DNA from: Rubrobacter calidifluminis
GTDB lineage: Bacteria > Actinomycetota > Rubrobacteria > Rubrobacterales > Rubrobacteraceae
DNA: 64,000 nt
Reading direction: 5' to 3'
Assembly (NCBI RefSeq): GCF_028617075.1
Contig: NZ_JAQKGV010000010.1
Coordinates: 1 to 64,000, forward strand
Position 1 is the stretch's first letter. Each line of letters opens with the position of its first letter. A program made the position numbers and the translations under genes. Shown here in pieces: positions 1 to 35,222 of this stretch. The notes under the pieces were generated by a model that worked only from the letters and a program-made list of their open reading frames with translations, made no database searches and had not been told where the DNA came from.

Positions 1-159
1 GGTTAACGTGGGACGGATCGCTAACTGGCTCAACGGTGTTCCTACCGCCGTAACTCGGCGCTCCCGATTGGCGGCTCTGGCTCCGGTGAGCTGATCGTGG
101 CTCTCCGGCGAATAAACCAACAGTATCTATGCCGGCGTTTACTTGATCTTTGCCGGACT

Positions 160-492
160 CTACGATAGGCGCCATTCCACCAGCTCCGGCCCGCCGCCTT
201 CGGCGGGGAACATCTGGACCCTGAAGCGTATATCCGGGTGGTGGGTGTCCTTGCCGCCCCGCGTGTTGTAAGCGTCGACGAACCGGCACCGGTACTCGCC
301 GGGGAAGGTCTCGTCGGTAAGCCCCACCTCGAGCCTCACGGTCACCTCTTTCTCTCCGCCGCCGTCACCGTGCATGGATATGACGCGACCGCTCGCGTCT
401 TCCCTGAAAAGGGCATCGACCCGGGAGACGCCGCTTGAGTCCCTCAGGTCCAGCTCCAGTGTGATAGTGTCCCCAACCGTGTAAGTCCTCAC
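160..492 (-). CDS. Hypothetical 110-aa protein, probably beta-sandwich
   Basis: A GTG start at 492 is preceded by a GGAGAGGAG Shine-Dalgarno about 8 nt upstream, so the longer reading frame back to 654 is not needed and its extra part is low-complexity Arg/Gly/Ser. The protein alternates hydrophobic and polar residues (YTVGDTITLELDLRD near the N-terminus, FPGEYRCRFVDAYN near residue 75), which suggests an all-beta, Ig-like or lectin-like fold. No signal peptide or membrane segment is visible. It is divergent from the ArsR gene next door. Function unknown. Confidence 0.6.
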   Translation of the reverse strand: MRTYTVGDTITLELDLRDSSGVSRVDALFREDASGRVISMHGDGGGEKEVTVRLEVGLTDETFPGEYRCRFVDAYNTRGGKDTHHPDIRFRVQMFPAEGGGPELVEWRLS

Positions 493-690
493 CGCTCTTT
501 CTCCTCTCCCGAACGGCTCCCTCTTCGCCGTCGTTGGTCGCTCGCCGGCTTTCTCCGCCCGGAACCCCGAACCGGAACCCGACCGCCTCCGCCCGCCTTC
601 CTGCGGATCGCGCCGCCCTGGCAAGTTGACGCTCCATACGCGCCGGTATAGCATTATTTCGATTGTCGTTCAACTATAGGAGAGTATCGC

Positions 691-1104
691 GTGCGAGCGA
701 TCGACGACAAAGAGAAGGATCTGGAGCGGATCGCGAGCGAGGGCGTCTGCGAGGTGGACGTCATCCACGCGGAGGCCGTGCGGCGAGCTCGGGAGGCTTT
801 GCCGGAGGAGGAGGTCACGCGGAGGGCGACGGAGATCTTCGGGCTCCTCTCCGACCCCACGCGGTCACGCATCGTCTACGCCCTCTCGGTGGAGGAGCTG
901 TGCGTCTGTGATGTAGCCGCGGTGGCGGGGCTCTCCATCAGCGCCGCGAGCCACCAGCTCAAGCGCTTGAGGGATCGGGGGGTGGTGAGCTTCCGTAAGG
1001 AGGGCCGGTTGGCCTACTACCGCCTCGAAGACGAGCATCTGCGCCGGCTCCTTGAGGACTGCGTGGGACACGTCCTCGCAGAGCGAGGGGCGACTTCCGC
1101 CTAG
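691..1104 (+). CDS. ArsR/SmtB-family metal-responsive repressor (CadC-like)
   Basis: A 137-aa winged-helix repressor. The ELCVCD motif at residues 69-74 (C71, C73) is the classic alpha3 metal site of CadC/ArsR proteins, and C20 in a CEVDVIH stretch matches the N-terminal cysteine arm of CadC-type Cd/Pb/Zn sensors. The recognition helix is around residues 81-97 (SISAASHQLKRLR). An acidic/His C-terminal helix (DEHLRRLLEDCVGH) could be a second metal site. The GTG start at 691 has TAGGAGAG 8 nt upstream. The gene sits 41 bp before the P-type ATPase on the same strand, so it very likely represses that pump until metal binds. Which metal is not decided by sequence alone. Confidence 0.9.
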   Translation: MRAIDDKEKDLERIASEGVCEVDVIHAEAVRRAREALPEEEVTRRATEIFGLLSDPTRSRIVYALSVEELCVCDVAAVAGLSISAASHQLKRLRDRGVVSFRKEGRLAYYRLEDEHLRRLLEDCVGHVLAERGATSA

Positions 1105-1145
1105 GGCTTTGACCGTACGCAGACCTTAAAAGAAAGGAGCAAAAC

Positions 1146-3098
1146 GTGGCCAAAGAACGACTTCGCGAGCGCGAGGATGTAGAGACCGAAGAGAGAGACG
1201 AGGACGAAGAGGTCGAGGGCTTTGAGGGGCCGTGGTATCTCTTCCCGCCGATGCGCAACGCCCTCATCGCGGGCGCGCTGCTGCTGATCGGGTGGCTGAT
1301 CGAGCGCTTCACGGGCTTTCCGGCCTACGTACCGATCTCCGTCTTCGTCCTCGTCATCCTGATCGGCGCTTACTACTGGGCGCGCGAGGGTCTTGAGGAA
1401 CTCGTAGAGGAGCGCGAGGTCGGCATCGAGGTCCTCATGGCGTTCGCGACCGTGGGAGCGGTGATCCTGGGCGCGTGGTTCGAGGCCGCCTTCCTGGTCT
1501 TCCTCTACGCCGGCGCCGAGGCGACCGAAGAGTACACCTACGCCCGGACCCGCACCGCCATCCGGGCGCTCCTGGACCTCGCCCCCGAGACGGCGACGCT
1601 CCTCAAGGATGGGCGCGAGGAGACGGTCCCGGCGGAGGAGCTTGCGGTCGGCGACCTCTTCCTGGTCAGGCCCGGCGAGCGCATCCCAACGGACGGTGAG
1701 ATCCTGGAGGGCGCAAGCAGCCTGGACGAGTCGGCGGTGACGGGCGAGTCGGTGCCGGTGGAGAAGGGCGAGGGGGAGAAGGTCTTCGCCGGGACCATAA
1801 ACGCCACAGGCTCCCTGAAGGTGCGCGCGACGACGAACTTCGAGTCGAACTCGTTGCAGAAGATCATCCACCTGGTCGAGGAGGCGCAGGGCGTCAAGTC
1901 CGGCGCGCAGCGCTGGATCGACCGCTTCGGTAGCCGCTACAGCCCCGCCGTCCTTTTGGGAGCGCTCTTGCTCCTGGTCGTCCCGCCGCTCTTCGGCGGC
2001 CCCTTCGACACCTGGGCCTACCGCGCGGTGGTGCTGCTCGTCGCCGCCGCTCCGTGCGCCCTGGTCATGTCCACCCCCGTGGCGGTTGCCGCGGCGATAG
2101 GCCGCGCCGGGCGCGAGGGCGTGCTCATAAAGGGCGGCATCCACCTGGAGAACCTGGCGAAGGTCAGGGTCGTCACCTTCGACAAGACCGGAACCCTCAC
2201 CCGCGGCAAGCCCGTGGTGACCGATGTCGTCGCGGGCAACGGTTCGGCCGACGGCATGCTGAGAGTCGCAGCCGGCGTCGAGCACCTGAGCGAGCACCCG
2301 CTGGCCCGGGCGATCGTCGAGCGCGCCCGCTCGGAGGGCATACATCCTGCGGAGGTCAGGGATTTCCGGTCCCTCACCGGTGCCGGTGCCAGGGCCGAGG
2401 TCGACGGCCGGACCGTCTACGTGGGCAGCCCCGCCCTGTTCCGCGATCTCGGGGTTTCCCTCGACGGTACGCTAGAAGAGATCGAGCACCTTCAGGAGGA
2501 AGGCAAGACGGTGGTCCTGGTCGGGACCGGAGAGCGTGTGGAGGGGCTCCTCGCCATCCGTGACGAGCCGCGTCCGGAGGCGAAACGCGCCATCGAAGAG
2601 TTGCACGAGATGGGCTACGAGGTAGCGATGCTCACCGGGGACAACCTGCGCACCGCCAGAGCCATCGCCCGGGAGCTGGGCATCGACGAGGTGCGCGCCG
2701 ACCTGAAGCCCGAGGACAAGGTGGAAGCCGTAAAGGAGCTGGAGCGGGAGCACGGCCCCGTGGCGATGGTCGGGGATGGCATTAACGACGCGCCGGCCCT
2801 TGCCACGGCGACCGTCGGGATGGCGATGGGCACCGCAGGTACCGACGCGGCCATAGAGGCGGCGGACGTGGCGCTCATGGGCGACGACCCACGCAAGGCT
2901 GCCTACGCTCTCAGGCTCGCCAGGCGCAGCCAGCGCATAAGCCTGCAGAACATCGTCTTCTCCATACTGGTTCTGGCCGTCCTCATCCCCGGCGCGGTAC
3001 TCGGCTTGCTCGGCATCGCCGCTGCCGTCTTCGCCCACGAGACATCGGAGCTTCTCGCCATCGCCAACGGCCTGCGCGTCGCCCGGAGGGTCGGCTGA
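1146..3098 (+). CDS. P1B-type heavy-metal efflux ATPase with APC transmembrane motif
   Basis: A 650-aa integral-membrane ATPase of the ZntA/CadA class that exports divalent metal ions using ATP. Visible are the actuator TGES loop (near residue 202), the phosphorylation motif DKTGTLT at D346, the P1B-specific HP dipeptide at H384-P385, and the hinge GDGINDAP at 543-550. The N-terminus is a short acidic cytoplasmic tail with no CXXC metal-binding domain. The transmembrane-6 metal motif reads A302-P-C rather than the usual CPC or SPC, so the metal site lacks one normal ligand. The GTG start has AAAGGAG 6 nt upstream. It follows the ArsR repressor and is probably co-transcribed with it. Confidence 0.93.
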   Translation: MAKERLREREDVETEERDEDEEVEGFEGPWYLFPPMRNALIAGALLLIGWLIERFTGFPAYVPISVFVLVILIGAYYWAREGLEELVEEREVGIEVLMAFATVGAVILGAWFEAAFLVFLYAGAEATEEYTYARTRTAIRALLDLAPETATLLKDGREETVPAEELAVGDLFLVRPGERIPTDGEILEGASSLDESAVTGESVPVEKGEGEKVFAGTINATGSLKVRATTNFESNSLQKIIHLVEEAQGVKSGAQRWIDRFGSRYSPAVLLGALLLLVVPPLFGGPFDTWAYRAVVLLVAAAPCALVMSTPVAVAAAIGRAGREGVLIKGGIHLENLAKVRVVTFDKTGTLTRGKPVVTDVVAGNGSADGMLRVAAGVEHLSEHPLARAIVERARSEGIHPAEVRDFRSLTGAGARAEVDGRTVYVGSPALFRDLGVSLDGTLEEIEHLQEEGKTVVLVGTGERVEGLLAIRDEPRPEAKRAIEELHEMGYEVAMLTGDNLRTARAIARELGIDEVRADLKPEDKVEAVKELEREHGPVAMVGDGINDAPALATATVGMAMGTAGTDAAIEAADVALMGDDPRKAAYALRLARRSQRISLQNIVFSILVLAVLIPGAVLGLLGIAAAVFAHETSELLAIANGLRVARRVG

Positions 3099-3112
3099 AG
3101 GAGGTCGATGGC

Positions 3113-4525
3113 ATGTCCGGCGCACCATCGAAAGCAACCGGCGCGGCAACCGCACCCGGCAGGACGCGCGAACATCCGCTGTGGCTGCTGCGCGACGCGC
3201 GCAGGGCCAGAAAGCAAGGCCCGGCTGCGATCGAGCGGCGGCAGCGCGCCCGGCTTGCCGGGATGGTGGCCTTCGCGTGTGCCAACTCGCCGTACTACCG
3301 CAAGCTCTACCGGGACCTGCCGGAGAAGATCGAGGATCCCACGCTCTTGCCGATTACCTCAAAGAAGGCGCTGATGGCGCGCTTCGACGACTGGGCGACC
3401 GACCGTGAGGTGACCATCGAGAAGGCGCGGGCGTTCGTTGAGAACCCCGACCTCATCGGGGAGCGGTTCCTGGGCAGGTACACGTTGCTCACCACCTCGG
3501 GCACCACCGGGAACCGCGGGATCTTCGTGCTGGACGACCGGAGCATGGCCGTGACCAGCGCCCTCGTCTTCCGCATGCTGAGCGCCTGGCTCGGGATCGG
3601 CGACGTCATCGGCATCCTCGCCGGCGGCGGGCGCATGGCCATGGTGAACGCCATGGGCGGCCACTTCGCCTCCGCGGTAGCCGCCACCCGCCTACGCGGC
3701 AAACGGGTCCAGGTCTTCCCGGTGGATATGCCCCTACCGGAGATGGTGGCTCAACTCAACCGGTTTCGGCCGGTCATAGTCGCCTCGTACGCGAGCATGG
3801 CCGCGCTCTTGGCCGGCGAGCGGGAGGCCGGCCGCCTGCGCATCGACCCGGTGCTGGTGGTGCTCTCGGCCGAGGGGCTCCCGGCACGCGAGTACGACCG
3901 GATCGCCGGGGCGTTCGACGCCAAGGTCCGCGACAGCTACGCCGCCACCGAGTGCCCCTTCATCAGCTACCGCTGCGAGCACGGCTGGCTGCACGTCAAT
4001 AGCGACTGGCTCGTCTTGGAGCCGGTCGACGCCGACCACCGCCCCGTCGCGCCGGGCAAGCACTCGCACACGGTCCTGCTCACGAACCTCGCCAACCGGG
4101 TGCAGCCCATCATCCGCTACGACCTCGGCGACAGTATCTTGCAGCGGCCCGACCCCTGCTCGTGCGGTAACACGCTGCCCGCCATCCGCGTGCAGGGCCG
4201 CGCCGCCGACGTGCTCGCCTTTCCTATCGGCGGCGAGCGGGTCACCATTCCGCCTTTGGCGTTCGGCTCGCTGGTCGATCGCACCCCGGGGGTCGAGCTG
4301 TTCCAGATCGTGCAGACCGCACCGGCGAGCCTGCGCGTGCGCCTGCATCCCGCGGCCGGTGCCGACCCGGAGCGCGTGTGGCGGATGGTGCACGACGAGA
4401 TCACGCACCTCCTCGCCGGAAACGGGCTCGACCACGTCACGGTCGAGCGCGCCGGGGAGCCGCCGGAGCAATCCGCGGGTGGCAAGTACCGTACGATAAT
4501 CCCGCTAAACTCGGGGGGATCATGA
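3113..4525 (+). CDS. PaaK-like adenylate-forming ligase (phenylacetate-CoA ligase family)
   Basis: A 470-aa AMP-binding protein. The P-loop-like motif LTTSGTTGNRG lies near residues 124-134, an Asp-Ser-Tyr-x-x-Thr-Glu acyl-adenylate core (SYAATECPF) near 281, and the ARYD-like IIRYDLGD near 337, followed by a Cys-x-Cys-Gly pair (CSCG) characteristic of the PaaK branch. The start has AAGGAGGT 7 nt upstream, 15 nt after the ATPase stop. The stop overlaps the lspA start as ATGA, so translation is coupled. Substrate unknown; in this metal-resistance setting aromatic catabolism is not obvious, and no paa genes are nearby. Confidence 0.8.
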   Translation: MSGAPSKATGAATAPGRTREHPLWLLRDARRARKQGPAAIERRQRARLAGMVAFACANSPYYRKLYRDLPEKIEDPTLLPITSKKALMARFDDWATDREVTIEKARAFVENPDLIGERFLGRYTLLTTSGTTGNRGIFVLDDRSMAVTSALVFRMLSAWLGIGDVIGILAGGGRMAMVNAMGGHFASAVAATRLRGKRVQVFPVDMPLPEMVAQLNRFRPVIVASYASMAALLAGEREAGRLRIDPVLVVLSAEGLPAREYDRIAGAFDAKVRDSYAATECPFISYRCEHGWLHVNSDWLVLEPVDADHRPVAPGKHSHTVLLTNLANRVQPIIRYDLGDSILQRPDPCSCGNTLPAIRVQGRAADVLAFPIGGERVTIPPLAFGSLVDRTPGVELFQIVQTAPASLRVRLHPAAGADPERVWRMVHDEITHLLAGNGLDHVTVERAGEPPEQSAGGKYRTIIPLNSGGS

Positions 4526-5049
4526 CCCGACGGTTCGGCAGGAAGATTGGCGTAACCTCGACAGCCGCCGCCCTGACCGTCCTCGGCGCGTACCTCGCGC
4601 GCCGGTGGGCCGAACGCGGCTTGGACTACGGCGAGACGGTCCCCCTGGCCGGCGACCTCTTCCGCCTGACCCTCGGCGAGAACCCGGGCGTGGCCTTCGG
4701 CCTGCTCGGTGGCTCCCCGCTCGTGCCCTGGCTCTCCGCGCTCGCGCTCGTCGTCTTCGCGCTTTACCTGGCTCGATCCCTGCGGGACAGCCGCGCGGGC
4801 GGTGTCTCGCTCGGCCTGATCCTCGGCGGCGGCCTCGCCAACCTGCTCGACCGCCTCGGCGACGGGCGCGTCACCGACTACCTGGACGTCGGCCTGGGGA
4901 GCTGGCGCTGGCCTACCTTCAACCTGCCCGACGCGGCGATAACGGTTGGTGTTTTCCTGGTCGTGTGGCTGCTCTGGCGTGACGCGCCCCACTCTACGAC
5001 GGGAAAGGAGAAGAATTCGCGTGGGCTCTTTGAGCGACTTCTTCGATAA
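4522..5049 (+). CDS. lspA: Lipoprotein signal peptidase (signal peptidase II)
   Basis: A 175-aa four-helix membrane aspartyl protease that removes signal peptides from prolipoproteins. The family motif with Asn and the first catalytic Asp reads NLLDRLGDGRVTDYLD (about residues 110-125), and the second reads FNLPDAAITVG. The start chosen is the ATG at 4522 inside the ATGA overlap with the preceding ligase; an upstream in-frame extension is Arg-rich and not LspA-like. The location within a metal-efflux block is typical of horizontally moving resistance islands, which often carry a second lspA, so this may not be the housekeeping copy. A decayed relative lies at 7126-7326. Confidence 0.9.
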   Translation: MTRRFGRKIGVTSTAAALTVLGAYLARRWAERGLDYGETVPLAGDLFRLTLGENPGVAFGLLGGSPLVPWLSALALVVFALYLARSLRDSRAGGVSLGLILGGGLANLLDRLGDGRVTDYLDVGLGSWRWPTFNLPDAAITVGVFLVVWLLWRDAPHSTTGKEKNSRGLFERLLR

Positions 5050-6115
5050 ACATGATCCGGACGGCAGGTGGCGCGCGGGCGCCCTTACGGGACTGGCCAG
5101 CGGCACGTTCTCGACGGTCCTTATCTCCCTGGGAGGACCCAGGATCGGGCGCGACGTGCCGCTCGACTGGATGGAGATAGCGAGCATCAACCTGCGCGAC
5201 CGGGCGATCGTCTCCGAGCCCGGCTGGCCCCAGGTCCTCCCGGGCATCCTCACCCACCAGAGCGTGGACCTTGCGTGGGCGGCGGCGTACTTCGGACTCG
5301 GCATCGGGCACCTCGGCCAGGAGAAGCAGAGGAAAGCCCTGCTCGCCGGGGCCATCCCGTGGGCGGTGGCGTCCTCCGCGTTCGAGTTCTTCGTCGCCAT
5401 CCCGATCCTCCAGCGGCTGCTCAAAATGCAGGTCCCCTACTGGACGGGCTTGACCGTTCACCTGGCGTCGAGCGTCGCTTACCCGCTCTTTCTGCGGATA
5501 CGGCGGCGCATCGCAGGGGAAGAGACGACCCCGGACGAGGATCGGCTGGCGCGCCTGACCCTCCTGGCGATGGGAGGCTCGATCGCGGCCCTCGCATTGC
5601 TCGAGGTCCTCGCCCGCAAGGGGCATGAGCCCCGCTGGCCCTTCGACCGGGAGCAGGAGATCGAGGTCGGCAGGAGCTTCCTGCGGCAGATGACGGCCCA
5701 CCACGAGCTGGGGGTCCGCCTCTCCCGCCTGCTGCGGGACAAAGCCCCACAAAAGGAGGCGCGGGTGCTGGGGACCCTGATGTACGCCGAGCACGTGGGG
5801 GAACTCGACGCGATGCGCCGCTGGTGGCGCAACTGGTACGGCGGCGAGATGCCCGAGCCGACCGAAGAGGAGCACGAGCGCATGCCCGGCATGCCGCCGA
5901 CCGGGCGGGTGGACGAGCTGGAGACGATGAGCGGGGCCGCCTTCGAGCGGAGCTTCTACCCCGTCATGATCTCCCACCACGAAGGCGCGATAACCATGTC
6001 CGACGACCTGATAAGGCGGGCCAGGGACCCCCGCCTGATCCTGTTCGCCGACCAGATCCGCTACGCGCAACGCAACCAAGTGCAGTACATGCGCGAGTTG
6101 GAGGGGCGTGCCTGA
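5021..6115 (+). CDS. Membrane protein with C-terminal DUF305 domain
   Basis: A 364-aa protein with a GTG start at 5021 and AAAGGAG 10 nt upstream; it overlaps the lspA 3' end by 29 nt. The N-terminal half (about residues 15-190) has several hydrophobic helices. The C-terminal 150 residues carry the DUF305 ferritin-like helical repeat, seen as paired MTAHHELGVRLS and MISHHEGAITMS motifs. DUF305 proteins are frequent in copper and metal-resistance loci and the His/Met pattern suits metal binding. Fusion to a multi-helix membrane domain is not the common DUF305 architecture. Role inferred as metal binding or handling at the membrane. Confidence 0.8.
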   Translation: MGSLSDFFDKHDPDGRWRAGALTGLASGTFSTVLISLGGPRIGRDVPLDWMEIASINLRDRAIVSEPGWPQVLPGILTHQSVDLAWAAAYFGLGIGHLGQEKQRKALLAGAIPWAVASSAFEFFVAIPILQRLLKMQVPYWTGLTVHLASSVAYPLFLRIRRRIAGEETTPDEDRLARLTLLAMGGSIAALALLEVLARKGHEPRWPFDREQEIEVGRSFLRQMTAHHELGVRLSRLLRDKAPQKEARVLGTLMYAEHVGELDAMRRWWRNWYGGEMPEPTEEEHERMPGMPPTGRVDELETMSGAAFERSFYPVMISHHEGAITMSDDLIRRARDPRLILFADQIRYAQRNQVQYMRELEGRA

Positions 6116-6163
6116 CGCCGTTGGCGCCCCGTTCGGAGCGCGGCCGCCCGAGGGAGCAGCCCC

Positions 6164-6901
6164 TTGAACGAGTACCTGGTCGTACTCGCGTTCGCCGCGT
6201 TGCCCGCACTTGGCAACTTCGCGGGCGGGGCGCTCGCCGAGTTCGTGCCCGTCTCGCGCCTGATGCTCAACCTCGCCCTCTACTCGGCCGCCGGCGTGGT
6301 GGTCGCCGTGGTGGCCGTGGAGCTCATGCCCCGGGCGCTGGAGGCCGACCCGGCCTGGGCCATCGTTCTGGCCTTCGTCCTGGGCGGCGTCTTCTACGTG
6401 GCCGTGGACTGGGCCATACAGCGCCTCAACGACCGCTACGGCGGCGAGGGCGGAGCTGGGCCGTGGGTGATCTTCTTCGGCGTCTCGGTTGACCTCTTCT
6501 CCGACGGGATCATGGTCGGCACCGGCTCGACGGTGGCCGTGGGCCTCGGCCTGCTCCTGGCTTTGGGACAGGTGCCCTCGGACATCCCGGAAGGCTTCGC
6601 CACCGTCGCCAACTTCAGGAGAAGGGGCGTCCCGCGCAGCCGGCGCCTGCTCCTCTCGGCGGCCTTCGCGGCGCCCATCTTCCTGGGCGCCACGCTCGGC
6701 TACTGGCTGATGCGCGACGCGTCCGAGCTCAACAAGCTCCTCTTGCTCACCTTCACCGCCGGGGTTCTCAGTACGCTGGTGGTCGAGGAACTGGTGCCTG
6801 AGGCGGTCGAGGAGGTCCCCGAGTCCCCGCTTTCGTCCCTGGCCTTCATCGGCGGCTTCGCCCTCTTCGCGCTGCTCTCTACCTACCTGGAGGTGGAGTA
6901 G
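6164..6901 (+). CDS. ZIP-family transporter with substituted metal-site histidines
   Basis: A 245-aa protein with about eight hydrophobic helices and ZIP organisation. The helix-4 and helix-5 signatures are recognisable (DLFSDGIMVG near residue 110 and SDIPEGFATV near 142), but the His-Asn pairs of the canonical HNFPEG/HNIPEG motifs are replaced by Asp-Leu and Ser-Asp. The TTG start at 6164 has GGGAG about 9 nt upstream, 48 nt after the DUF305 gene. Family members move zinc or other divalent cations, often inward; with both signature histidines gone, substrate or even activity is uncertain. Last intact gene of the metal block. Confidence 0.82.
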   Translation: MNEYLVVLAFAALPALGNFAGGALAEFVPVSRLMLNLALYSAAGVVVAVVAVELMPRALEADPAWAIVLAFVLGGVFYVAVDWAIQRLNDRYGGEGGAGPWVIFFGVSVDLFSDGIMVGTGSTVAVGLGLLLALGQVPSDIPEGFATVANFRRRGVPRSRRLLLSAAFAAPIFLGATLGYWLMRDASELNKLLLLTFTAGVLSTLVVEELVPEAVEEVPESPLSSLAFIGGFALFALLSTYLEVE

Positions 6902-7125
6902 AGGGCCGGGCAGGGACCCTGATGGCCTCCACGAGCATGGCCTGAAGACTCCGCCACGCTCGCCTGATGGTCATCCGGCTTCCCGACCACCCGGCTCCGC
7001 AGAGCAGGAGAGCATGAATCTCGTGGCCGCTAACCGGTGCCGGGCGGAGGCACGAGCCGGAAGAGCGCCCGGAGCCTGACGAGCGTTGGCGCGAGTTCGG
7101 CCCTATTCGCATCACCATCGAAGGC
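6902..7125. other. Non-coding stretch after the ZIP gene
   Basis: No convincing gene on either strand. Open frames here are short, Arg/Pro/Ser-rich and lack ribosome-binding sites. The frame leading into the broken lspA copy is open back to about 7060 (reading DERWREFGPIRITIEGV), which may be the tail of whatever sequence was joined to the lspA remnant. Confidence 0.5.
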
Positions 7126-7326
7126 GTGACCCGGAGGGACGGAGTGGGAGTCGGCGGAACGGCACTTGGCTTTGTCCTCGGCAGCCTTGCCAATTTACTC
7201 GACAGCCTGGTGCTGGCCCACCTTCAACCTCCCCAAGTGGCAATAACCGTCGACTTCCTCTTCGCTCTGAGGCTGTTCGCCCGTCTCGCACCATACGATC
7301 GTGACGGGCGAACAAGAAAGTTGTAG
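7126..7326 (+). pseudogene. lspA: Decayed second copy of lspA
   Basis: The frame from 7126 reads GGTALGFVLGSLANLLD, matching the GGVSLGLILGGGLANLLDR segment of the intact lspA at 4522-5049. About 20 residues including the first catalytic Asp are then missing. The next LspA segment appears only in a shifted frame (WPTFNLPKWQ then stop, about 7214-7243), and the original frame resumes as AITVDFLFALRLFARLAPYD. So at least one deletion and two frame changes have occurred, and it cannot make a working peptidase. Probably left by an earlier duplication or insertion of a metal block. Confidence 0.72.
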
Positions 7327-7870
7327 AGCACGCAGATCGGCATCGATGCAGTGGCTTTCGCTGCCGTCAAAGCGGGATTATGAGACCGGATCGCGACATC
7401 GCCACGCCTACGGGAAGGCTCGCACACCTACCTCCCAGGCGGCTTTATGCCGCCCCTTCGGGGTTGCCTGCGGCAACCTGGCAGGAACCGGGCTGTGCTC
7501 TCCCGGCGGAACGGCGCAGGGCGAGGCTCGGAGGTACGGGCCGCAGGCCGCCCCGGATGGTCGGCCCCCGGCCCTCTACAGACATTCTCCGGTAACGCGC
7601 CCCGACAGGGCGGCCAGCTAAAGCTCGCCGCTTGTGGAAGGCGATCCTCATCGGTACGGTCCGCAGTCGGCTCCGCTTCTCTACGCCGACCCCGGCCCTC
7701 ATCGAACATCGCGAGAAGCGCAACGCCGTAAAGGCGGAGAGCCTCCCGGAGGTCGGCACACCGCCCCGAATCACATTGAGGACGCAGAGTGAAAGTTCCG
7801 CCGACATCGAAGGATCCACGCATGATCTGACCGGGTTCCGGGTTTTGCCTACGCCAGGGAAGGCTACACC
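7327..7870. other. Decayed or structured DNA with no supported gene
   Basis: Several overlapping open frames exist on both strands but none has a recognisable domain, ribosome-binding site or consistent codon bias. Small hairpins are packed near 7440-7480: GCGGC/GCCGC, CCCC/GGGG and a 7-bp GGTTGCC/GGCAACC stem. A degenerate direct duplication lies at 7533-7576 and 7653-7700. It looks like the remains of inactivated genes or a non-coding element. Confidence 0.45.
7533..7700. repeat. Degenerate direct duplication, spacing about 120-124 bp
   Basis: GGTACGGGCCGCAG at 7533-7546 recurs as GGTACGGTCCGCAG at 7653-7666. Downstream in each unit, CGGCCCCCGGCCCTC at 7562-7576 recurs as CCGACCCCGGCCCTC at 7686-7700. 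The offset between the paired blocks is 120 then 124 bp, so this is a tandem duplication with small indels. No function can be assigned. Confidence 0.5.
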
Positions 7871-7961
7871 GGGAGGGCGGGGACGGCTAAGCCGCCCTTA
7901 AAGGGGTGTCAAGGGGCCTCCATACCGGCCGTGCCCTACCCCTTGACATCCCCGCCCTCCC
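7871..7961. repeat. Nested inverted repeat upstream of the SLOG gene
   Basis: GGGAGGGCGGGG (7871-7882) is perfectly complementary to CCCCGCCCTCCC (7950-7961). Nested inside, GGGGTGTCAAGGGG (7903-7916) pairs with CCCCTTGACATCCCC (7939-7953) with one bulged base, and a small CGGC-TAA-GCCG hairpin lies at 7884-7894. Outer and inner stems compete for the CCCC at 7950-7953, so two alternative folds are possible. The right arm also contains a consensus -35 hexamer TTGACA (7943-7948). It lies 30 bp before the SLOG start codon, which suggests a regulatory or recombination site. Confidence 0.65.
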
Positions 7962-7990
7962 GGTCCCTCCCGCCTCCAGGCAGGCAAAAC

Positions 7991-8464
7991 ATGATCTCTG
8001 GCAGCGACACATCTGGCTCTTCTTCTGCACTCCCTCTCGGTGGGGTGGTAGCTTTCTGCGGCTCCCGTCATGGCTCGCCCTTTCCTGTCTCTCCCGTGGT
8101 GGCGGCTGTGCTTTCCGCCGGCGGCTCCGTCCGCGTCGGCTGTGCCCCTGGCGTTGATGCCGCCGTCCGCTCGTGCTGCATCTCGGCCGTGGTGGTGCGC
8201 GCCTCGTCGTTTTCCGGTCCGCCGCGTGCCCGCCTGGCTGCTCGCACCCGTGCGGTGGTCGCCGGTGCGTCGGCCTTGTGCGTCTTCCCGCCCGCCGGCG
8301 GCTCCCTTGGCCCTGGCTCATCACTCGCCATCCGGTGCGCTCTGTCCGCTGGCCTTCCGGTTTGGTGTGCCGGGCCTCGGCCTTCCGTGCCTGTTTCCTG
8401 GTCTTCGCTTCGCCTGGCGGGTGTGCCCGGCTTTGTCTATCTTCCGGCGCCGTCTCTCTTCTAG
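7991..8464 (+). CDS. SLOG-fold putative nucleotide-binding protein (DprA/LOG-like superfamily)
   Basis: A 157-aa protein rich in Ser, Val, Ala and Pro. The order of motifs is that of short stand-alone SLOG (Rossmann-like) proteins: a strand ending VVAFCGSRHG (about residues 19-28), VGCAPGVDAAVRS (about 49-61), RASSF near 70, then a glycine-rich phosphate-binding segment GGSLGPGSSL near 110 and GLPVW near 127. Third codon positions are strongly G/C, supporting coding on this strand despite its pyrimidine-rich sequence; the antisense frames are Arg-rich shadows. No good Shine-Dalgarno precedes ATG 7991, and a GTG at 7931 is an alternative start. Relatives sense or cleave nucleotides, but the exact role is unknown. 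The inverted repeat at 7871-7961 lies just upstream. Confidence 0.68.
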   Translation: MISGSDTSGSSSALPLGGVVAFCGSRHGSPFPVSPVVAAVLSAGGSVRVGCAPGVDAAVRSCCISAVVVRASSFSGPPRARLAARTRAVVAGASALCVFPPAGGSLGPGSSLAIRCALSAGLPVWCAGPRPSVPVSWSSLRLAGVPGFVYLPAPSLF

Positions 8465-8501
8465 CTTGGAAGATTTTCCTGCAAATCAAACAAAATTAAT
8501 G

Positions 8502-8544
8502 TTGGGAAAACACCATGTTGCCGTACTATTACTGTACGCGCACA
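8502..8544 (+). promoter_or_regulatory. Promoter with palindromic operator before the SWIM gene
   Basis: A -35 candidate TTGGGA (8502-8507), a 16-bp spacer and a -10 TACTAT (8524-8529) are followed by TGTACGCGCACA (8533-8544), a near-perfect 12-bp palindrome at the expected transcription start. The block from GTACTAT to the end of the palindrome matches the site at 9165-9186 with only three substitutions, although the surrounding sequence is unrelated. Confidence 0.65.
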
Positions 8545-8615
8545 ATCAGTGCGGAGTGTAAAGAAGCCCGGCGGCGCTGGTCCCGCCCCGGGCGCGACCC
8601 AAGGAGGTTTGGTCC

Positions 8616-9086
8616 TTGAGTGAGCAAAGTGTACACGAGCGGCAGACGTCTCGGGCGCTGCGCGGTCTCGTTCTCTTCCGGGAGCGGGGAGTGGATATCC
8701 GGCCCATGCAGGACAGGCGCTGGCGGGTGCCTTCGTGCAGCTGCCCGCGCTTCTACGCGGTGGATCTCGAAGAGGAGTCCTGCACCTGCGCGGACTTCCA
8801 AAACCGGTGCAAGGCGTGCAAGCACGTCTTCGCGGCGGTGATCGCCGCCTCGCGCCACGGTCGGGCGGTCTCCTTCATGGCGGAGCTTCGCGCCCGGCGC
8901 GCCGAGGAGTTGGCGGAGGCGGTCGCGGAGCCGTTGGCTGAGCCGGTCACCGAGGCGGCGATCCGCCAGAGCTACGACCTGTACCTGCGGGTGTGCGGGC
9001 TCTACCCGCGCGACGGCCTACTGGTCGAGGCGGCGAGGGCTCGCCACAAGGCGGCCCTGCGCGCCTTCGTGGCCGGGGCTCCCTGA
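8616..9086 (+). CDS. SWIM zinc-finger protein
   Basis: A 156-aa protein with a SWIM-type zinc site: C56-x-C58 (SCTCADF) and C68-x-H70 (ACKHVF), with an extra Cys at 65 and a further CSC at 41-43. SWIM domains bind DNA or proteins and occur in recombination, helicase and transposon-linked proteins. The C-terminal half is helical, Ala/Arg/Glu-rich, with no recognised domain. The TTG start at 8616 is supported by AAGGAGGT 7 nt upstream. The shared operator with the next gene suggests they form one regulatory unit in the island. Confidence 0.8.
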   Translation: MSEQSVHERQTSRALRGLVLFRERGVDIRPMQDRRWRVPSCSCPRFYAVDLEEESCTCADFQNRCKACKHVFAAVIAASRHGRAVSFMAELRARRAEELAEAVAEPLAEPVTEAAIRQSYDLYLRVCGLYPRDGLLVEAARARHKAALRAFVAGAP

Positions 9087-9164
9087 CGCACGCCCTCTTC
9101 CCGCCGGGGCGCCGGCGCACACGGCCGGCGCCCCCTGACCATCTCCCGAAGAGAGCGCACAATG

Positions 9165-9186
9165 GTACTATATCTGTGCGCGCACA
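9165..9186 (+). promoter_or_regulatory. Second copy of the palindromic promoter/operator element
   Basis: GTACTAT (9165-9171, containing the -10-like TACTAT) followed by TGTGCGCGCACA (9175-9186), a perfect 12-bp palindrome. It repeats the element at 8523-8544. The start codon of the DUF6788-like gene is 15 nt downstream, so a protein bound here would cover the transcription start and ribosome-binding region. Confidence 0.65.
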
Positions 9187-9201
9187 TGCGAGAGGAGGCG
9201 C

Positions 9202-9555
9202 GTGGACCTGGACCGGATGATCGCGGGCTTGAAGGACCTCGACCGGGAGGGGCTCGCCCGCTTGCGAGAGGAGCTCGAGCTGCGGCTGCGGGAGCTCGGA
9301 GACGATGCCTCCGGGAAAGATGGCAAGCCGGCGGGCTCCGGGGTGCTGGAGTACCGCCCGCATGCGGACGGGACGCTCCAGGCGGAGGTCCGCCGGTACG
9401 TGCGCAAGGACGGCACGGTCAAGGAACAGGGACCGTACTGGTACTTCCGCTACCACGAGGGCGGCAGGCAGAAGAAGCTCTACCTGGGTAAGACTGACGA
9501 CCCGGAGGGGGAGCTTGCGCGGAGGCGGGCGACGAGTTCGGGGAAGGCGACGTAA
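9202..9555 (+). CDS. Small protein resembling DUF6788
   Basis: A 117-aa protein. Residues 1-35 form an acidic/leucine heptad-like helix (LARLREELELRLREL). The C-terminal half contains a beta-rich aromatic motif, GPYWYFRYHEGGRQKKLYLGK (about residues 77-97), typical of DUF6788-like proteins found beside recombinases and SWIM proteins. The GTG start has AGAGGAGG 3 nt upstream. Function unknown; the basic aromatic hairpin could contact nucleic acid. It is probably co-regulated with the SWIM gene through the repeated operator. Confidence 0.65.
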   Translation: MDLDRMIAGLKDLDREGLARLREELELRLRELGDDASGKDGKPAGSGVLEYRPHADGTLQAEVRRYVRKDGTVKEQGPYWYFRYHEGGRQKKLYLGKTDDPEGELARRRATSSGKAT

Positions 9556-9602
9556 TCGGGCAGAACATGCGACAATCTGGACGGAACGATAGGAGCCCTC
9601 AG

Positions 9603-9914
9603 ATGGAACAGCGGTTAGAGAAACAGACCGAAGAGATGACCCGCGCGGCCAAAGAGATCACCGAGGCCGTCAAGGAGCTTAGAACCGCGGTCGAGAGGCT
9701 GGCTGAGATCCAACGCCCCGGCGAATTCCCTGAAGACGAAGCAGTGCGGCTCGCCCAGGAAGGCGTGCACGAGGTGAGGGAAGAACTCAGGCGTGAGCGC
9801 GAGCGGTTGGGCCTCAAAGAGGAGAGAAGGCCCGCGCCGACCCCGGAGGAGATCCGGGAGTGGGAGCACCGCAGGGAAGAGCGTCGCCGGCGCGAGGGCT
9901 ATAAGCCCCTTTGA
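9603..9914 (+). CDS. Coiled-coil protein, candidate antitoxin partner of the PIN protein
   Basis: A 103-aa, highly charged, almost entirely helical protein (EKQTEEMTRAAKEITEAVKELR near the N-terminus, then REELRRERERLGLKEERR). The ATG at 9603 has AGGAG 7 nt upstream, whereas the in-frame ATG at 9567 has none. The stop overlaps the TTG start of the PIN gene as TTGA, so the two are translated together. Size, order and coupling fit a VapB-type antitoxin, but no known DNA-binding antitoxin fold (AbrB, RHH) is evident, so this is inference. Confidence 0.55.
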   Translation: MEQRLEKQTEEMTRAAKEITEAVKELRTAVERLAEIQRPGEFPEDEAVRLAQEGVHEVREELRRERERLGLKEERRPAPTPEEIREWEHRREERRRREGYKPL

Positions 9915-10348
9915 GCGGGCCGCTGGTCGTCCTCGACACGGACGCGGTCGTAACCGCCCTGATCGGCGACGAGGGCGCTTCGAGCTACCGGATCCTGCGC
10001 GCCGTGGGCGCCGGGGACATTAGGGTGGCGCTCTCCGACGCCTTCCTGGTCGAGTTGGTGAGGACCGTCCGCAACCGATACCGGCAGGGTTTGATCCTCA
10101 ACGCGGCCAGGGCCTTCGAGGTGGCGCTGGACCTGGGCCTGCAAGGCGAGCTCAGGCGGCCTCCAGGCTGGGAATGGCCCAGCGTGCCCGATCCCGAAGA
10201 CCGGTGGATACCCGACCTCGCCTACGACGCCGGTGCAGACTTCATCGTCACCTGGGATCGGCACCTGCTCGACGCCGAGCTACCCTTCAGCGCCGAGGTC
10301 GTCACTCCAGCCCAACTCCTCCAGAGGCTTTCAGCCCCTGCCCCCTAA
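9911..10348 (+). CDS. PIN-domain protein, putative VapC-like ribonuclease toxin
   Basis: A 145-aa single-domain PIN nuclease. The N-terminal VVLDTDAVVTALI has the first catalytic acidic residues, SDAFLVELV supplies a central Glu, and the C-terminal DPEDRWIPDLAYDAGADFIVTWDRHLLD holds the second acidic cluster, matching the COG1569-type putative toxin branch. PIN toxins cleave RNA using Mg or Mn. It starts with TTG inside a 4-nt overlap with the upstream coiled-coil gene, an arrangement typical of toxin-antitoxin operons. Being the last gene before the att scar, it may help stabilise the island. Confidence 0.75.
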   Translation: MSGPLVVLDTDAVVTALIGDEGASSYRILRAVGAGDIRVALSDAFLVELVRTVRNRYRQGLILNAARAFEVALDLGLQGELRRPPGWEWPSVPDPEDRWIPDLAYDAGADFIVTWDRHLLDAELPFSAEVVTPAQLLQRLSAPAP

Positions 10349-10380
10349 TCCCCCTCGCCGCATACTCGGCCGGCGAAACT

Positions 10381-10402
10381 TACCGCAACCGTACCGCAAC
10401 CG
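10381..10402. repeat. Tandem 11-bp direct repeat near the att site
   Basis: TACCGCAACCG occurs twice back to back (10381-10391, 10392-10402), and a related inverted copy (GAGCGGTACGG) lies just downstream near 10414-10424. Short repeated arm-type sites beside a tRNA att core are typical binding sites of tyrosine integrases and excisionases; that role is inferred from position. Confidence 0.5.
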
Positions 10403-10516
10403 AGCTGATGCGGAGCGGTACGGAACGGACGAAGGGTACCTGCCAAACCGCCAAAACCGCATAAATAAGCCGAATCTGCGGACGTATTAGTACGGGCTAG
10501 AACCTGTCTCTTCGAA

Positions 10517-10561
10517 CTTCTAATCCGCCGGCCGCAGGTTCGAATCCTGCCGGGCGCGCCA
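10517..10561 (+). other. 3' tRNA-Arg(TCT) fragment, probable att site
   Basis: CTTCTAA (10517-10523) is a tRNA anticodon loop with anticodon TCT. It is followed by a variable region, the T arm GCAGG-TTCGAAT-CCTGC (10534-10550), acceptor half CGGGCGC, discriminator G and an encoded CCA (10559-10561). Nothing upstream can form the matching 5' half: the base-pairing partners of the anticodon stem and acceptor stem are absent. A displaced tRNA 3' end is the usual product of site-specific integration into a tRNA gene. Confidence 0.78.
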
Positions 10562-10584
10562 CCGGCGATTTCGCCGGGTTTTGC
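10562..10584 (+). terminator. Intrinsic terminator following the tRNA fragment
   Basis: CCGGCG-ATTT-CGCCGG hairpin followed by GTTTTG. It directly follows the CCA of the tRNA-Arg fragment, as expected for the original terminator of the interrupted tRNA gene. Confidence 0.65.
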
Positions 10585-10610
10585 TGGTAGAATCATCTGC
10601 CGGGAACGTG

Positions 10611-10683
10611 GTGGCCGTAGCTCAGCCGGTAGAGCATCGGATTGTGGCTCCGAAGGTCGCGGGTTCGAATCCCGTCGGTCACC
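10611..10683 (+). tRNA. tRNA-His (GTG)
   Basis: The acceptor stem GTGGCCG pairs with CGGTCAC (one G-U), with D arm, anticodon stem TCGGA/TCCGA around loop TTGTGGC, and T arm GCGGG-TTCGAAT-CCCGT. The discriminator is C and the preceding base is G (10610), matching the G-1:C73 identity pair of histidine tRNA. CCA is not encoded. Confidence 0.95.
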
Positions 10684-10731
10684 CTGGCGCCCCCTGAGAG
10701 CCCCACCCCGCCGGGTTGGTAGAATGGGAAT

Positions 10732-31421: not shown

Positions 31422-32404
31422 GCTCCGCAATAGCAGGCATAGGCGTGTTGCAGGCGGTTGTCTACCTGCTCTTCATCCGGGCCGTCGACCTCTACGAGCG
31501 CGAGCCTCTCTCTTACGTGGCGGCGGTTTTCGTGTGGGGCTTTACGGTGTCGGTCTTCGTCTCCGCTCTGTTCGAGTCCATCCTGCAGTACACGCTGGCC
31601 GTAGTCACCAACGCCCGATTCGCTCACGCCCTGACGGCCGTCATGGGGGCTCCGGTGATAGAGGAGTGCGCGAAGGGGGCCGCGCTCTTTCTGGTTTTCC
31701 TCTTCTCCCTGCTGCTCGCCCGTTCCCGAGGGGAGATGGAGTTCTCCGGCGTGATGGACGGCATAGTCTACGGCTCGGCGGTGGGCTTCGGATTCTCCCT
31801 GGCCGAGGATCTGGTCTATTACGCCCAGTTTGGTCCCGAGACCTTCGTGGTGCGCCGGATCTTCGGCGGCTTCGGACATGCTGCCTTCACCTCGCTCACC
31901 GGTGTCGGGATAGGGCTCGTGCCGTGGGTGCGCACGCTTCCGGCGAAGGTCTCGCTCCCGCTTCTCGGGCTGGTCGGGGCGATGTTGCTTCACGCCGCCT
32001 TCAACCTGACCGCCACCCTTTTCGGGGCCCTGGCGTATGCTTTCCTCTTTCTCGTGGTCCTCGCGTACCTCGTCCTGATAGTCCTCTGGCTGGCCTTCGA
32101 GCGGCGCGTCATCCGCCAGGAACTCTACGAGGAGACCCGGACCGGAACGATAGACCCGCGGGAGTACCCCCTCATGCCGACCTACTTAAGGCGCAAGCTG
32201 CACTACGCGCGGCTGCTCTCGCGGGGGAGGTTCGGGCACTGGAGGACCGACCGGAGGGTGCACGCTGCGGCGGTTGACCTGGCCTTCACCAAGCGCTTGG
32301 TACGCCGCAGCGGGGATCCCGCACAGCTTGAGCGCGTCGAGAGGCTCCGGGAGCGGATCTTGCGGTTGAGAGGGGTAAGGGTGGGGGAGTCGGAGGTACT
32401 CTGA
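31403..32404 (+). CDS. prsW: PrsW-family intramembrane metalloprotease
   Basis: A 333-aa polytopic protein with about seven helices. The PrsW/CPBP-like motifs are visible: VIEECAKG near residue 87 (EExxK), GFSLAEDLVYY near 131, FGHAAFTSL near 156 and a late LLHAAFNLT near 196. In Bacillus PrsW cuts an anti-sigma factor; the target here is unknown. The C-terminal 70 residues are cytoplasmic and basic. GTG 31403 is given, with TTG 31418 as an alternative coupled to a short upstream ORF. The stop overlaps the mobA start. Confidence 0.87.
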   Translation: MGDRLLSSAIAGIGVLQAVVYLLFIRAVDLYEREPLSYVAAVFVWGFTVSVFVSALFESILQYTLAVVTNARFAHALTAVMGAPVIEECAKGAALFLVFLFSLLLARSRGEMEFSGVMDGIVYGSAVGFGFSLAEDLVYYAQFGPETFVVRRIFGGFGHAAFTSLTGVGIGLVPWVRTLPAKVSLPLLGLVGAMLLHAAFNLTATLFGALAYAFLFLVVLAYLVLIVLWLAFERRVIRQELYEETRTGTIDPREYPLMPTYLRRKLHYARLLSRGRFGHWRTDRRVHAAAVDLAFTKRLVRRSGDPAQLERVERLRERILRLRGVRVGESEVL

Positions 32405-32991
32405 GCGGGGGGCTCTCGGGCATCATCCTCGCCGGGGGGGCGAGCGAGAGGATGGGCGAGGACAAGCTCCTCCTCGAAGTCGGGGGACTCGCGCTCGTCG
32501 AGAGGGTCTACCAGGCGCTCGCGGCGACCTGCTCGGAGGTGCTCGTGGTCGGGAGGGAATCTCTGCCTTTCGGCGGGGTGAGGTTCGTCCGGGATCGACG
32601 ACCGGGCCGGGAGGGTCCGCTGGCCGGGATCGAAGCCGGGCTTCATGCGGCCGGCCATCCGGTCGTATTCGTGGCGGCGGGGGACATGCCCTTTCTGCAC
32701 GAGGGACTCGTTGGACTGCTCGCCGGGGTGGTTCATGGGGGTGCCGGGGCTGCGGTGCCGTGGTTCGATGGTCCGCATCCACTCTGCGCGGCCTATGGCA
32801 GGTGGGTGTTGTCGTCTGTCTCGGCCTCCCTGGACTCTGGCGTGCGGTCCATGCGTGGATTTCTGGGGCGCCTCGGGCGCGTGATATACGTTGGCGGAGA
32901 GCAGCTCTCGGTCCTCGGGGACCCCTCTCTGATGCTCATGAACGTGAACACGCCAGCGGATCTCGAGAGGGCCAGGCGGGTGGCTGGATGA
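32401..32991 (+). CDS. mobA: MobA-like molybdenum cofactor guanylyltransferase, apparent CTG start
   Basis: A 196-aa nucleotidyltransferase fold. The family's nucleotide-binding motif is IILAGGASERMGEDK at about residues 8-22, followed by AAGDMPFLHEGLV and NVNTPADLERAR. The motif begins upstream of the first ATG (32452), and no ATG, GTG or TTG lies between the preceding in-frame stop (32329) and 32452. CTG at 32401 overlaps the prsW stop as CTGA, with GGAGGT just before it. It most likely attaches GMP to the molybdenum cofactor; other NTP sugar or IspD-type uses are possible. Confidence 0.78.
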   Translation: MSGGLSGIILAGGASERMGEDKLLLEVGGLALVERVYQALAATCSEVLVVGRESLPFGGVRFVRDRRPGREGPLAGIEAGLHAAGHPVVFVAAGDMPFLHEGLVGLLAGVVHGGAGAAVPWFDGPHPLCAAYGRWVLSSVSASLDSGVRSMRGFLGRLGRVIYVGGEQLSVLGDPSLMLMNVNTPADLERARRVAG

Positions 32992-33578
32992 GGCCGCTCC
33001 GCCAGAGCTGCAGGGACCTGGCCGGGTTGCTCGAGGTGTGGCGGAAGGGGATGCCCCGCGGCTCGGTGAGGGCTGAGGTCGCGGTGGTGCTCGGGGCGCA
33101 GGTTTTGAAGGGTGGGAGACCAAGCACGACCCTCAGGGCCCGGGCCGAACACGCGGCCCTCCTGTATGGTGCAGGGCGGGTACGGAGAATCATCGTCACC
33201 GGCGGGGTGGGGGAGAACCCGCCGAGCGAGGCCGAGGTCATGGCGGATATATTGCGCTCCCGGGGCGTGCCCGGCGAGGCGATACTGCTTGAGAGAGAGG
33301 CGTTGAGTACCTGGGACTCAGCGCTTCTCGTGGCGGCGATGCTGCGACGGATCGGGGTGGATGGCGTGTTGCTGGTCACCGACCCGCTGCACTGCGTGCG
33401 CGCCGTGGAGGCTTTTAAGGAGGCAGGAGTGGATGCCGTGGCCGAACCAGCCTACGAGAGCCCGATGTGGTACAGGAAGTGGCGGAGGGCGGGACAGCTC
33501 CTGCGGGAGGCGGCCGCGATCGTCTGGTACAGGTTTCACCATGGGATTGGTTCGCGCCGGGACACGCCGGGCCCTTAG
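32988..33578 (+). CDS. YdcF/SanA-like DUF218 protein
   Basis: A 196-aa DUF218-domain protein. VAVVLGAQVLKGGRPSTTLRARAEHAALLYGAGRVRRIIVTGG covers the conserved core, with the acidic EALSTWDSALLV and VTDPLHCVRA motifs after it. Members such as YdcF and ElyC act in envelope or cofactor-related processes. The start overlaps mobA's stop as ATGA, so prsW, mobA and this gene form one coupled operon. No N-terminal membrane helix is visible. Confidence 0.84.
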   Translation: MRPLRQSCRDLAGLLEVWRKGMPRGSVRAEVAVVLGAQVLKGGRPSTTLRARAEHAALLYGAGRVRRIIVTGGVGENPPSEAEVMADILRSRGVPGEAILLEREALSTWDSALLVAAMLRRIGVDGVLLVTDPLHCVRAVEAFKEAGVDAVAEPAYESPMWYRKWRRAGQLLREAAAIVWYRFHHGIGSRRDTPGP

Positions 33579-33614
33579 AAAAAGATTCGCCATGGTGTAT
33601 TCTCTCGGGGAGAG

Positions 33615-34244
33615 ATGACGCAGCCCCGGGATAAGAAGCTGGACAACCGCAGGGAGCCGTTCCGGATCGGCCTAGCCTACGGTGCTGTGGCGATTGTCGT
33701 CGCGATCGCCACCAATCTTTACTTCCTCTTCATCGACCCCAGAACATCCAGTGAGTGGTTGCTCGCCGTGATCCAGCAGTACCGCACCCCGTTCGCGCTG
33801 ACCGTCTACATCTTCCTCGGCATACTCGCTGCTCTGAGGGTCCGTCCATCCCGGCTCGACCCGGGTTCTTCCTACGGTTCCCTGCTCGTGCGCGACGGTG
33901 CGCTGGCCGCCACCGTGATCGCCGTTCTGGTCTGGGTGTCTCTCTTCGTTATCCTGGCACTCGAGGCCACGGTCTTCGCCGGGGCGATGCGCGACTATGC
34001 GCAGGCGGCCGCACCCAGGATCGTCCACTACGTCAACGAGGCGCGAAAGATCCTCAGCAACCCACCCCCTCCGGCGCGGGTGGGGCCGGTGCGCTCTGCT
34101 CTGCAGCCGCCGCAGCTCTGGGATCTGGGTCGTTCGATCTTCAACGGCGTCCTGCGGGCGATCATCATGGGGGGGGTGGGGGCGGCCGTGGGCGCCCTGC
34201 GCGGGCGGTCCCGCAGAAACCGTGGGCAGCAGGAGAGGGGCTAG
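33615..34244 (+). CDS. Hypothetical membrane protein
   Basis: A 209-aa protein with four hydrophobic segments (about residues 20-42, 55-75, 98-125, 170-190) and a basic C-terminus (RGRSRRNRG). No recognised family. ATG 33615 has GGGGAGAG 4 nt upstream, 36 nt after the DUF218 gene, so it may end that operon. A strong terminator follows. Confidence 0.67.
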   Translation: MTQPRDKKLDNRREPFRIGLAYGAVAIVVAIATNLYFLFIDPRTSSEWLLAVIQQYRTPFALTVYIFLGILAALRVRPSRLDPGSSYGSLLVRDGALAATVIAVLVWVSLFVILALEATVFAGAMRDYAQAAAPRIVHYVNEARKILSNPPPPARVGPVRSALQPPQLWDLGRSIFNGVLRAIIMGGVGAAVGALRGRSRRNRGQQERG

Positions 34245-34276
34245 CGCAGGAGAACGGGGGCTGAGACGCAGAATAA

Positions 34277-34300
34277 AGGACCCCGCAAACGCGGGGTCCT
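34277..34300. terminator. Bidirectional intrinsic terminator
   Basis: AGGACCCCGC-AAAC-GCGGGGTCCT, a perfect 10-bp stem. On the plus strand CTTC follows; on the minus strand TTTATTC follows. It sits between two convergent genes and should stop both. Confidence 0.82.
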
Positions 34301-34333
34301 CTTCAGGTATGGCTGCGCTCTGGCATGCTCTCT

Positions 34334-35059
34334 CTAGGAAGAGAGCTCTTCTCCCGGTTTCATGACGTGGACTATGAGGTCCGGCGCGATGCTCTGCGCC
34401 TGCTTCTTGAACTCTTCCGGCGTCCCCGGCAGGAACGGGAAGGTCCCGTAGTGGATGGGCACCGCGTGGCGCACGCCGAGCAGCCTCGCCGCGTGCGCCG
34501 CCTCGAACGGGCTCATCACGAGGCGGTCTCCGATCGGGAGAAGTGCCAGGTCCGGCCCGTAGAGCTCGCCGATCAGGCGCATGTCGCCGAAGATCGATGT
34601 GTCGCCTGCGTGGTAGAGCTTGAAGCCGCTCTCGAACTCGAGGATGAATCCGCAGGGCTCCCCGGCGTAGATCACGGTCCCGTCCTCTTCGGTGATCGAA
34701 GAGGCGTGGTGGGCGTTCACGGCTGTTATCTTCACCCCGCCGACCTGTCCGGTGCCGCCCTTGTTCAGCGGGAAGGTGTTCTCCACGCCCTTGGTGCCGA
34801 GCCAGTTGCAGATCTCGAAGTTCGCGACGACCGTCGCCCCGGTCTGCTGCGCGAGCGGAACGGCGTCCGCGATGTGGTCGAAGTGTCCGTGGGTGACGAG
34901 GATGGTGTCGAGCTCTCCAACCTGTTTGAGCTCGTCGGGCGTCTGGGGATTGTCGGCGAGGAAGGGGTCTATGATGATCTGCTCGTCACCCGCCGTGGTG
35001 ATGCGGAACGTTGCGTGTCCCAGGTAGGTTATGCGGGTGCCTCCGAGCATCTCTTCCAA
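34334..35059 (-). CDS. UPF0173-family metallo-beta-lactamase-fold hydrolase
   Basis: A 241-aa MBL-fold protein. ITYLGHATFRI near the start, the zinc motif THGHFDHIAD near residue 58, NAHHAS near 115, YHAGDTSIF near 149 and a final PIHYGTFP fit the UPF0173/YtkL-type hydrolases. Function of the family is unsettled. The TTG start at 35059 has AAGGAGG 9 nt upstream. Confidence 0.88.
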   Translation of the reverse strand: MEEMLGGTRITYLGHATFRITTAGDEQIIIDPFLADNPQTPDELKQVGELDTILVTHGHFDHIADAVPLAQQTGATVVANFEICNWLGTKGVENTFPLNKGGTGQVGGVKITAVNAHHASSITEEDGTVIYAGEPCGFILEFESGFKLYHAGDTSIFGDMRLIGELYGPDLALLPIGDRLVMSPFEAAHAARLLGVRHAVPIHYGTFPFLPGTPEEFKKQAQSIAPDLIVHVMKPGEELSS

Positions 35060-35222
35060 TCTTTGTTCCTCCTTTCACAGGGTCAGACCTCAGGGGAAAC
35101 CTCTCTAGCTATACCCCGGTGTCGTCTCCGGGAAACAGCCCGCTCCACTGACTATACTCTCCAGGGAGATTTGGCAAACAGGTCTTCTGGAGAGGGCTTT
35201 CAGTGATTTTCGAGGAGCTCTG

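Follow-up and report, generated by a model that had tools for sequence, protein, structure and literature searches.

Phage satellites of the PICI-like kind combine an integrase, an excisionase, a repressor and a primase in one block and carry no virion genes. Among genomic islands integrated in tRNA genes, the Islander collection found a 3' tRNA fragment in 3,760 of 3,919 islands and an anticodon-centred crossover in 2,083, and a 5' fragment is documented too, but in few islands (159 of 3,919; PMC4383910). For one archaeal case of the pTN3-like kind, it has been stated that the integrase promoter drives expression of the restored tRNA (PMC8371274). A survey of AICEs reported the Rubrobacteridae to be devoid of them (PMC3218068).

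Here, we analysed the first 64 kb (the window) of contig C10 of the draft genome G000 and compared it with relatives from the Rubrobacteraceae. We find that a partial tRNA-Arg(TCT) in this window is almost certainly the right end of a metal-gene island of about 25.2 kb, integrated in tRNA-Arg by a tyrosine integrase. As in Islander-type islands, one end carries a complete tRNA gene and the other a fragment of that gene in the same orientation; a tyrosine integrase lies inside; and relatives offer a precise empty site (G001, and G020 for the island copy in G009). We see no essential difference from such islands, except that the draft assembly splits this one over two contigs, C4 and C10, so that its end-to-end continuity in G000 rests on the target duplication of an insertion sequence (IS). 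The Acinetobacter baumannii islands G08 and G62, metal-resistance islands moved by an integrase of their own, likewise combine an integrase with heavy-metal resistance genes (PMC6070778), but belong to another phylum. With AICEs (PMC3218068) the island shares a tyrosine integrase, an excisionase, attachment at the 3' part of a tRNA gene and a candidate replication gene; set against the AICE Rep types, this gene is a DnaG-like primase/helicase (PHROGs matches), and no FtsK/SpoIIIE (TraB) transfer domain of the AICE type was present in the scanned island proteins (larger ORFs). It also has the integrase, excisionase, repressor and primase block, with no virion genes recognised, that marks PICI-like satellites (type: PMC10111431), although its cargo is larger than that of a PICI and no packaging or helper-interference gene was identified in the island. 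The features of the window are collected in Table 1.

Table 1. Features in and around the right end of the island (window coordinates).
Feature	Position	Strand	Evidence
Right end of the insertion sequence responsible for the assembly break between C4 and C10	1..127		Complete element in G011; uninterrupted site in G009
TATGCCGG, 8-bp IS target duplication, second copy at the C4 end	128..135		Comparison of G009, G011 and G000
ArsR/SmtB-type metal regulator	691..1104	+	Pfam HTH_5, E 2.8e-14
Heavy-metal (Zn/Cd-type) P1B ATPase	1146..3098	+	NCBIfam TIGR01525, 626 bits; Pfam
DUF305 protein, start codon uncertain	4946..6115	+	Pfam, E 7.5e-29
ZIP-family metal transporter, start codon uncertain	6164..6901	+	Pfam, E 6.6e-14
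PIN-family putative toxin	9911..10348	+	Pfam PIN_3; NCBIfam TIGR00305 above cut-off
Putative integrase arm-type site made of two 9-bp repeats, period 11 bp: ACCGCAACC GT ACCGCAACC	10382..10401	+	Role inferred
attR core, displaced 3' part of tRNA-Arg(TCT)	10513..10559	+	Match to the intact gene; partial Rfam fit; same remnant at the right ends in G009 and G011
Crossover interval ACTTCTAATCCGCCGG, anticodon loop and 3' anticodon stem	10516..10531	+	Alignment of attL, attR and attB
Terminator-like hairpin, original Arg-His spacer	10562..10583	+	Pattern scan; also in the uninterrupted G001 cluster
tRNA-His(GTG), with which intact chromosomal genes resume to the right of the island	10611..10684	+	ARAGORN; Rfam; next after Arg in G001

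The scar begins in the 5' strand of the anticodon stem and ends at the discriminator base. A search of the organism's own genome aligned it with C4:182220-182266, the 3' part of the intact tRNA-Arg(TCT) gene, with 45 of 47 bases identical (96%, E 1.5e-15), and the remaining genome matches were full genes for other tRNAs. ARAGORN called no tRNA at 10513-10559, its sole call nearby being tRNA-His, and the Rfam tRNA model reached 24.2 bits against a cut-off of 29, with a good fit solely from the anticodon stem onwards. The first-pass annotation, made from the letters of this DNA, had described a 3' remnant of tRNA-Arg(TCT) without a 5' half and read it as the attachment site of an island integrated into a tRNA gene. 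The remnant is real, and the attachment-site reading is supported by the intact tRNA, the integrase and the empty site described below; the span first given, 10517-10561, starts 4 nt inside the scar, whose exact bounds are 10513-10559.

Two further details of that description need qualification. The letters CCA at 10559-10561, taken at first as an encoded CCA end, are present; however, the same position reads CCC in the G001 empty site and CTT in the intact attL gene. We dropped them as the mark of a once-mature tRNA, and the CCA looks incidental rather than diagnostic. Similarly, the terminator ascribed to the remnant is indeed terminator-like (a hairpin at 10562-10577 followed by a T tract), but the same hairpin lies between Arg and His in G001 and is therefore part of the original Arg-His spacer. 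Rfam also gave a weak YrlA match at 10509-10659, whose score of 24.5 falls short of the cut-off of 69; we discount it, since the tRNA half and tRNA-His together mimic a tRNA-like module.

Alignment of attL, attR and attB brackets the strand exchange. Base 10515 is A in attR and G in attB, and therefore came from the element; base 10532 is C in attR, as in attB, and T in attL, and attL therefore got that base from the element. These two mismatches place the exchange within 16 nt of the anticodon arm. At these positions G011 agrees with G000, and G009 has the same bracket with C in place of A. Just inside both island ends, and in the same orientation, lies the 20-mer ACCGCAACCGTACCGCAACC, found once in the window and once in the examined C4 stretch (182339-182358). 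An arm-like repeat search allowing up to three mismatches returned this single match in the window, with 0 expected, and the same tandem repeat occurs at both ends of the G011 island. We infer that the 20-mer repeats are arm-type integrase sites.

The first-pass annotation had proposed looking upstream for the intact tRNA-Arg(TCT) and for an integrase. Both exist, at the other end of the island and outside the window: the intact gene, at C4:182193-182266 on another contig of the same genome, is the last member of a Pro(TGG)-Gly(TCC)-Arg(TCT) cluster, and the coding region of a 375-aa tyrosine integrase on the reverse strand begins 98 bp after it (Phage_integrase PF00589, E 8.2e-28). An intact tRNA-Arg immediately upstream of the remnant, named as an observation that would speak against integration, is not there. 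After the integrase come an excisionase-like ORF (C4:183675-183875), which exceeds the TIGR01764 cut-off, a divergent LexA-like S24 protein, which scores above the cut-off of the LexA model, and a 756-aa primase/helicase-like protein with only distant, partial matches in phage and plasmid collections. For xis, ORF L006:8247-8519 was set aside for its implausible translation, and the overlapping ORF 8276-8476 is the better candidate. Int and Xis would be expected to excise the island, and the LexA-like repressor may control this step.

The cargo, in the window and on C4, is mostly concerned with metal handling and comprises two P1B-type ATPases, ArsR-type regulators, a ZIP transporter and a DUF305 protein; these protein families suggest that the island may confer metal resistance on its host. 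The PIN-family putative toxin gene adjoins attR, and the ORF just before it (9567-9914) is, from its position alone, a possible antitoxin. Relaxase, coupling-protein, secretion and virion genes were not recognised in the scanned island proteins (larger ORFs). A 0.85-kb stretch occurs in both island parts (window 7488-8325 and L006:14163-14976, 73% identity), and the ORFs of the window copy have no Pfam match.

The same island lies between an intact tRNA-Arg and an Arg scar in two genomes from genera other than that of G000, namely G009 (43.1 kb, complete genome) and G011 (27.6 kb). The possibility that relatives carry the island genes without the tRNA fragment, also raised at first, thus fails. 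Identity to G009 is 99.1% over window 128-10565; identity to G011 is 99.7% over window 1-7401 and 99.97% over window 7394-10559. In contrast to the 99.1-99.97% for most of the island's window part, the chromosomal flanks are only about 77-93% alike (about 77% for the upstream flanks of G009 and G011). Near-identical islands within diverged flanks suggest recent movement of the island between genera. Uniformity is lower in the left part of the island, with about 93% identity for G009 against G011. The islands differ in length owing to IS insertions and to about 19 kb of additional DNA in G009, which includes another P-type ATPase, a cation-efflux protein, and ZIP and phosphatase-type proteins. 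In G025, the integrase lies at the same tRNA and the right end of the island is on another contig.

The alternative that survives best accepts the same integration but takes the element to be, by now, a defective prophage or conjugative-element remnant rather than a mobile island itself. The lack of recognised transfer or virion genes among the scanned proteins and the resemblance of the primase and repressor to phage proteins would fit such decay. It is nonetheless a rather unlikely reading, considering that four genomes share an unbroken integrase reading frame at 99-100% identity and that near-identical islands in three genera point to recent movement. For transfer between cells, a helper phage, a conjugative element and natural uptake are all conceivable.

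A relative lacking the island at this point, which the first-pass annotation had also called for, is found within the genus: in G001, the Pro-Gly-Arg-His cluster is unbroken. The 5.3 kb of C4 through the end of tRNA-Arg match G001 at 93.5%, and the window from 10513 through tRNA-His matches it at 98%. Farther right, past a 2.4-kb insert that G001 has of its own behind tRNA-His and that makes it an imperfect comparator beyond that gene, collinearity with G001 extends from window position 10699 to about 61,477, at 79-89% identity. Since the flanks match on both sides, the chromosome is continuous and the island is missing in G001 at exactly the position of the scar. The sharp change in gene content first claimed here holds, with everything to the left belonging to the island and the right side collinear with G001. 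The sequence to the right of the G009 scar aligns collinearly, at 83-85%, with what lies to the right of the intact tRNA-Arg of G020; by this comparison G020 is a second empty site, for the G009 copy of the island.

It is hard to see how the scar could then be a decayed duplicate or pseudogene of tRNA-Arg beside tRNA-His that arose with no integration. A lone partial tRNA copy is compatible with duplication and decay, but on its right the scar adjoins the original Arg-His spacer, the intact gene sits at the left edge of the same element beside the integrase, the same arrangement recurs in G009 and G011, and the empty site in G001 refutes it; we assign this explanation a negligible probability.

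We note that the neighbourhood of this site holds further insertions. In G009, another 30 kb (C1:828698-858737), collinear with G020, lie between the Arg scar and tRNA-His and may be an older insertion or a lineage-specific region of its genus. The tRNA-His gene is also a target: a broken integrase lies right behind it in G001 (C4:121383-123838; L186), and G011 has a 3' tRNA-His fragment 2.4 kb downstream (C15; L189).

Comparison of the contig ends found no direct overlap between C4 and C10, because an IS lies at their junction. C4 stops and C10 starts inside its ends (G000:C4:195213-195344 and window 1-135), and the IS interior is in no contig of the G000 assembly. The complete IS in G011 has 1,765 bp, 17-bp terminal inverted repeats and a transposase-like ORF. 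The 8-bp target sequence occurs once in G009, where the C4 and C10 sequences run straight into each other, twice in G011, flanking the IS, and once at each contig end in G000. The split target duplication therefore makes C4 and C10 neighbours; on this evidence they can probably be joined in G000, giving an island of 13,078 + about 1,515 + 10,559 = about 25.2 kb. An inversion or translocation that split the tRNA cluster, no mobile element being involved, would also leave two tRNA halves on different contigs of a draft assembly, but is extremely improbable given this adjacency, the int and xis genes in the DNA between, and the complete genome G009, where the two matching tRNA pieces enclose the same DNA.

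For an island integrated in tRNA-Arg, we propose the following course. The attP of a circular element bore a copy of about 47 bp of the 3' part of tRNA-Arg(TCT) and recombined, via the element's own tyrosine integrase, with the chromosomal tRNA-Arg of the Pro-Gly-Arg-His cluster, the strands being exchanged within the anticodon arm. On the left, the native 5' half was joined to the 3' half from the element, which yielded a complete tRNA with its native promoter side retained. On the right, the native 3' half stayed behind as a non-functional scar, followed by the old hairpin and tRNA-His. The element of about 25.2 kb carries int, xis, the LexA-like S24 repressor, the primase/helicase and the genes for heavy-metal export and handling.

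Integrases of this lineage often lie about 100-130 bp from varied tRNA genes in Rubrobacteraceae. Of 40 genomes of the family, 15 contain related primases, sometimes less than 10 kb from a related integrase (e.g., G020 near 1.94 Mb). Reverse-type elements at tRNA-Arg(TCT) itself are seen in G020 (C1, about 1616350-1625320; L170) and G017 (C1, about 1561040-1569860; L167). In both, a related integrase (56-67% identical) lies upstream of tRNA-Arg on the same strand, a 5' tRNA-Arg fragment follows tRNA-Gly 8.7-8.9 kb upstream, and paired 11-bp-period repeats (ACTGCTGCC type) were recognised by eye near both ends. Judging from this arrangement, these elements restored the 5' half of tRNA-Arg, and expression of the restored tRNA would need an element-borne promoter. 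In G028 (C82, about 32150-36987; L173, L174), an integrase lies between two 3' tRNA-Arg fragments spaced 4.8 kb apart, and the stretch has no intact tRNA-Arg; stacked integrations are the likely cause.

As a wider and decidedly tentative reading, the island may belong to an undescribed family of Rubrobacterales elements, characterised by int, xis, a LexA-like switch and a primase/helicase, that would replicate after excision under the control of DNA damage and spread in the manner of satellites or mobilizable elements. The integrases of its lineage might recognise one and the same anticodon-loop site in either orientation, in which case the 3' half of the tRNA would be restored by some members and the 5' half by others.

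In sum, the mechanism is textbook tRNA-gene integration with a 3' scar, here documented by both ends, two empty sites and near-identical copies. The result delimits, to the base, a metal-handling island common to three genera of Rubrobacteraceae. The G000 island moreover offers a ready att system, with an attB of a 16-nt crossover interval, paired arm-like repeats, and int and xis, which would suit bacteria having few genetic tools.
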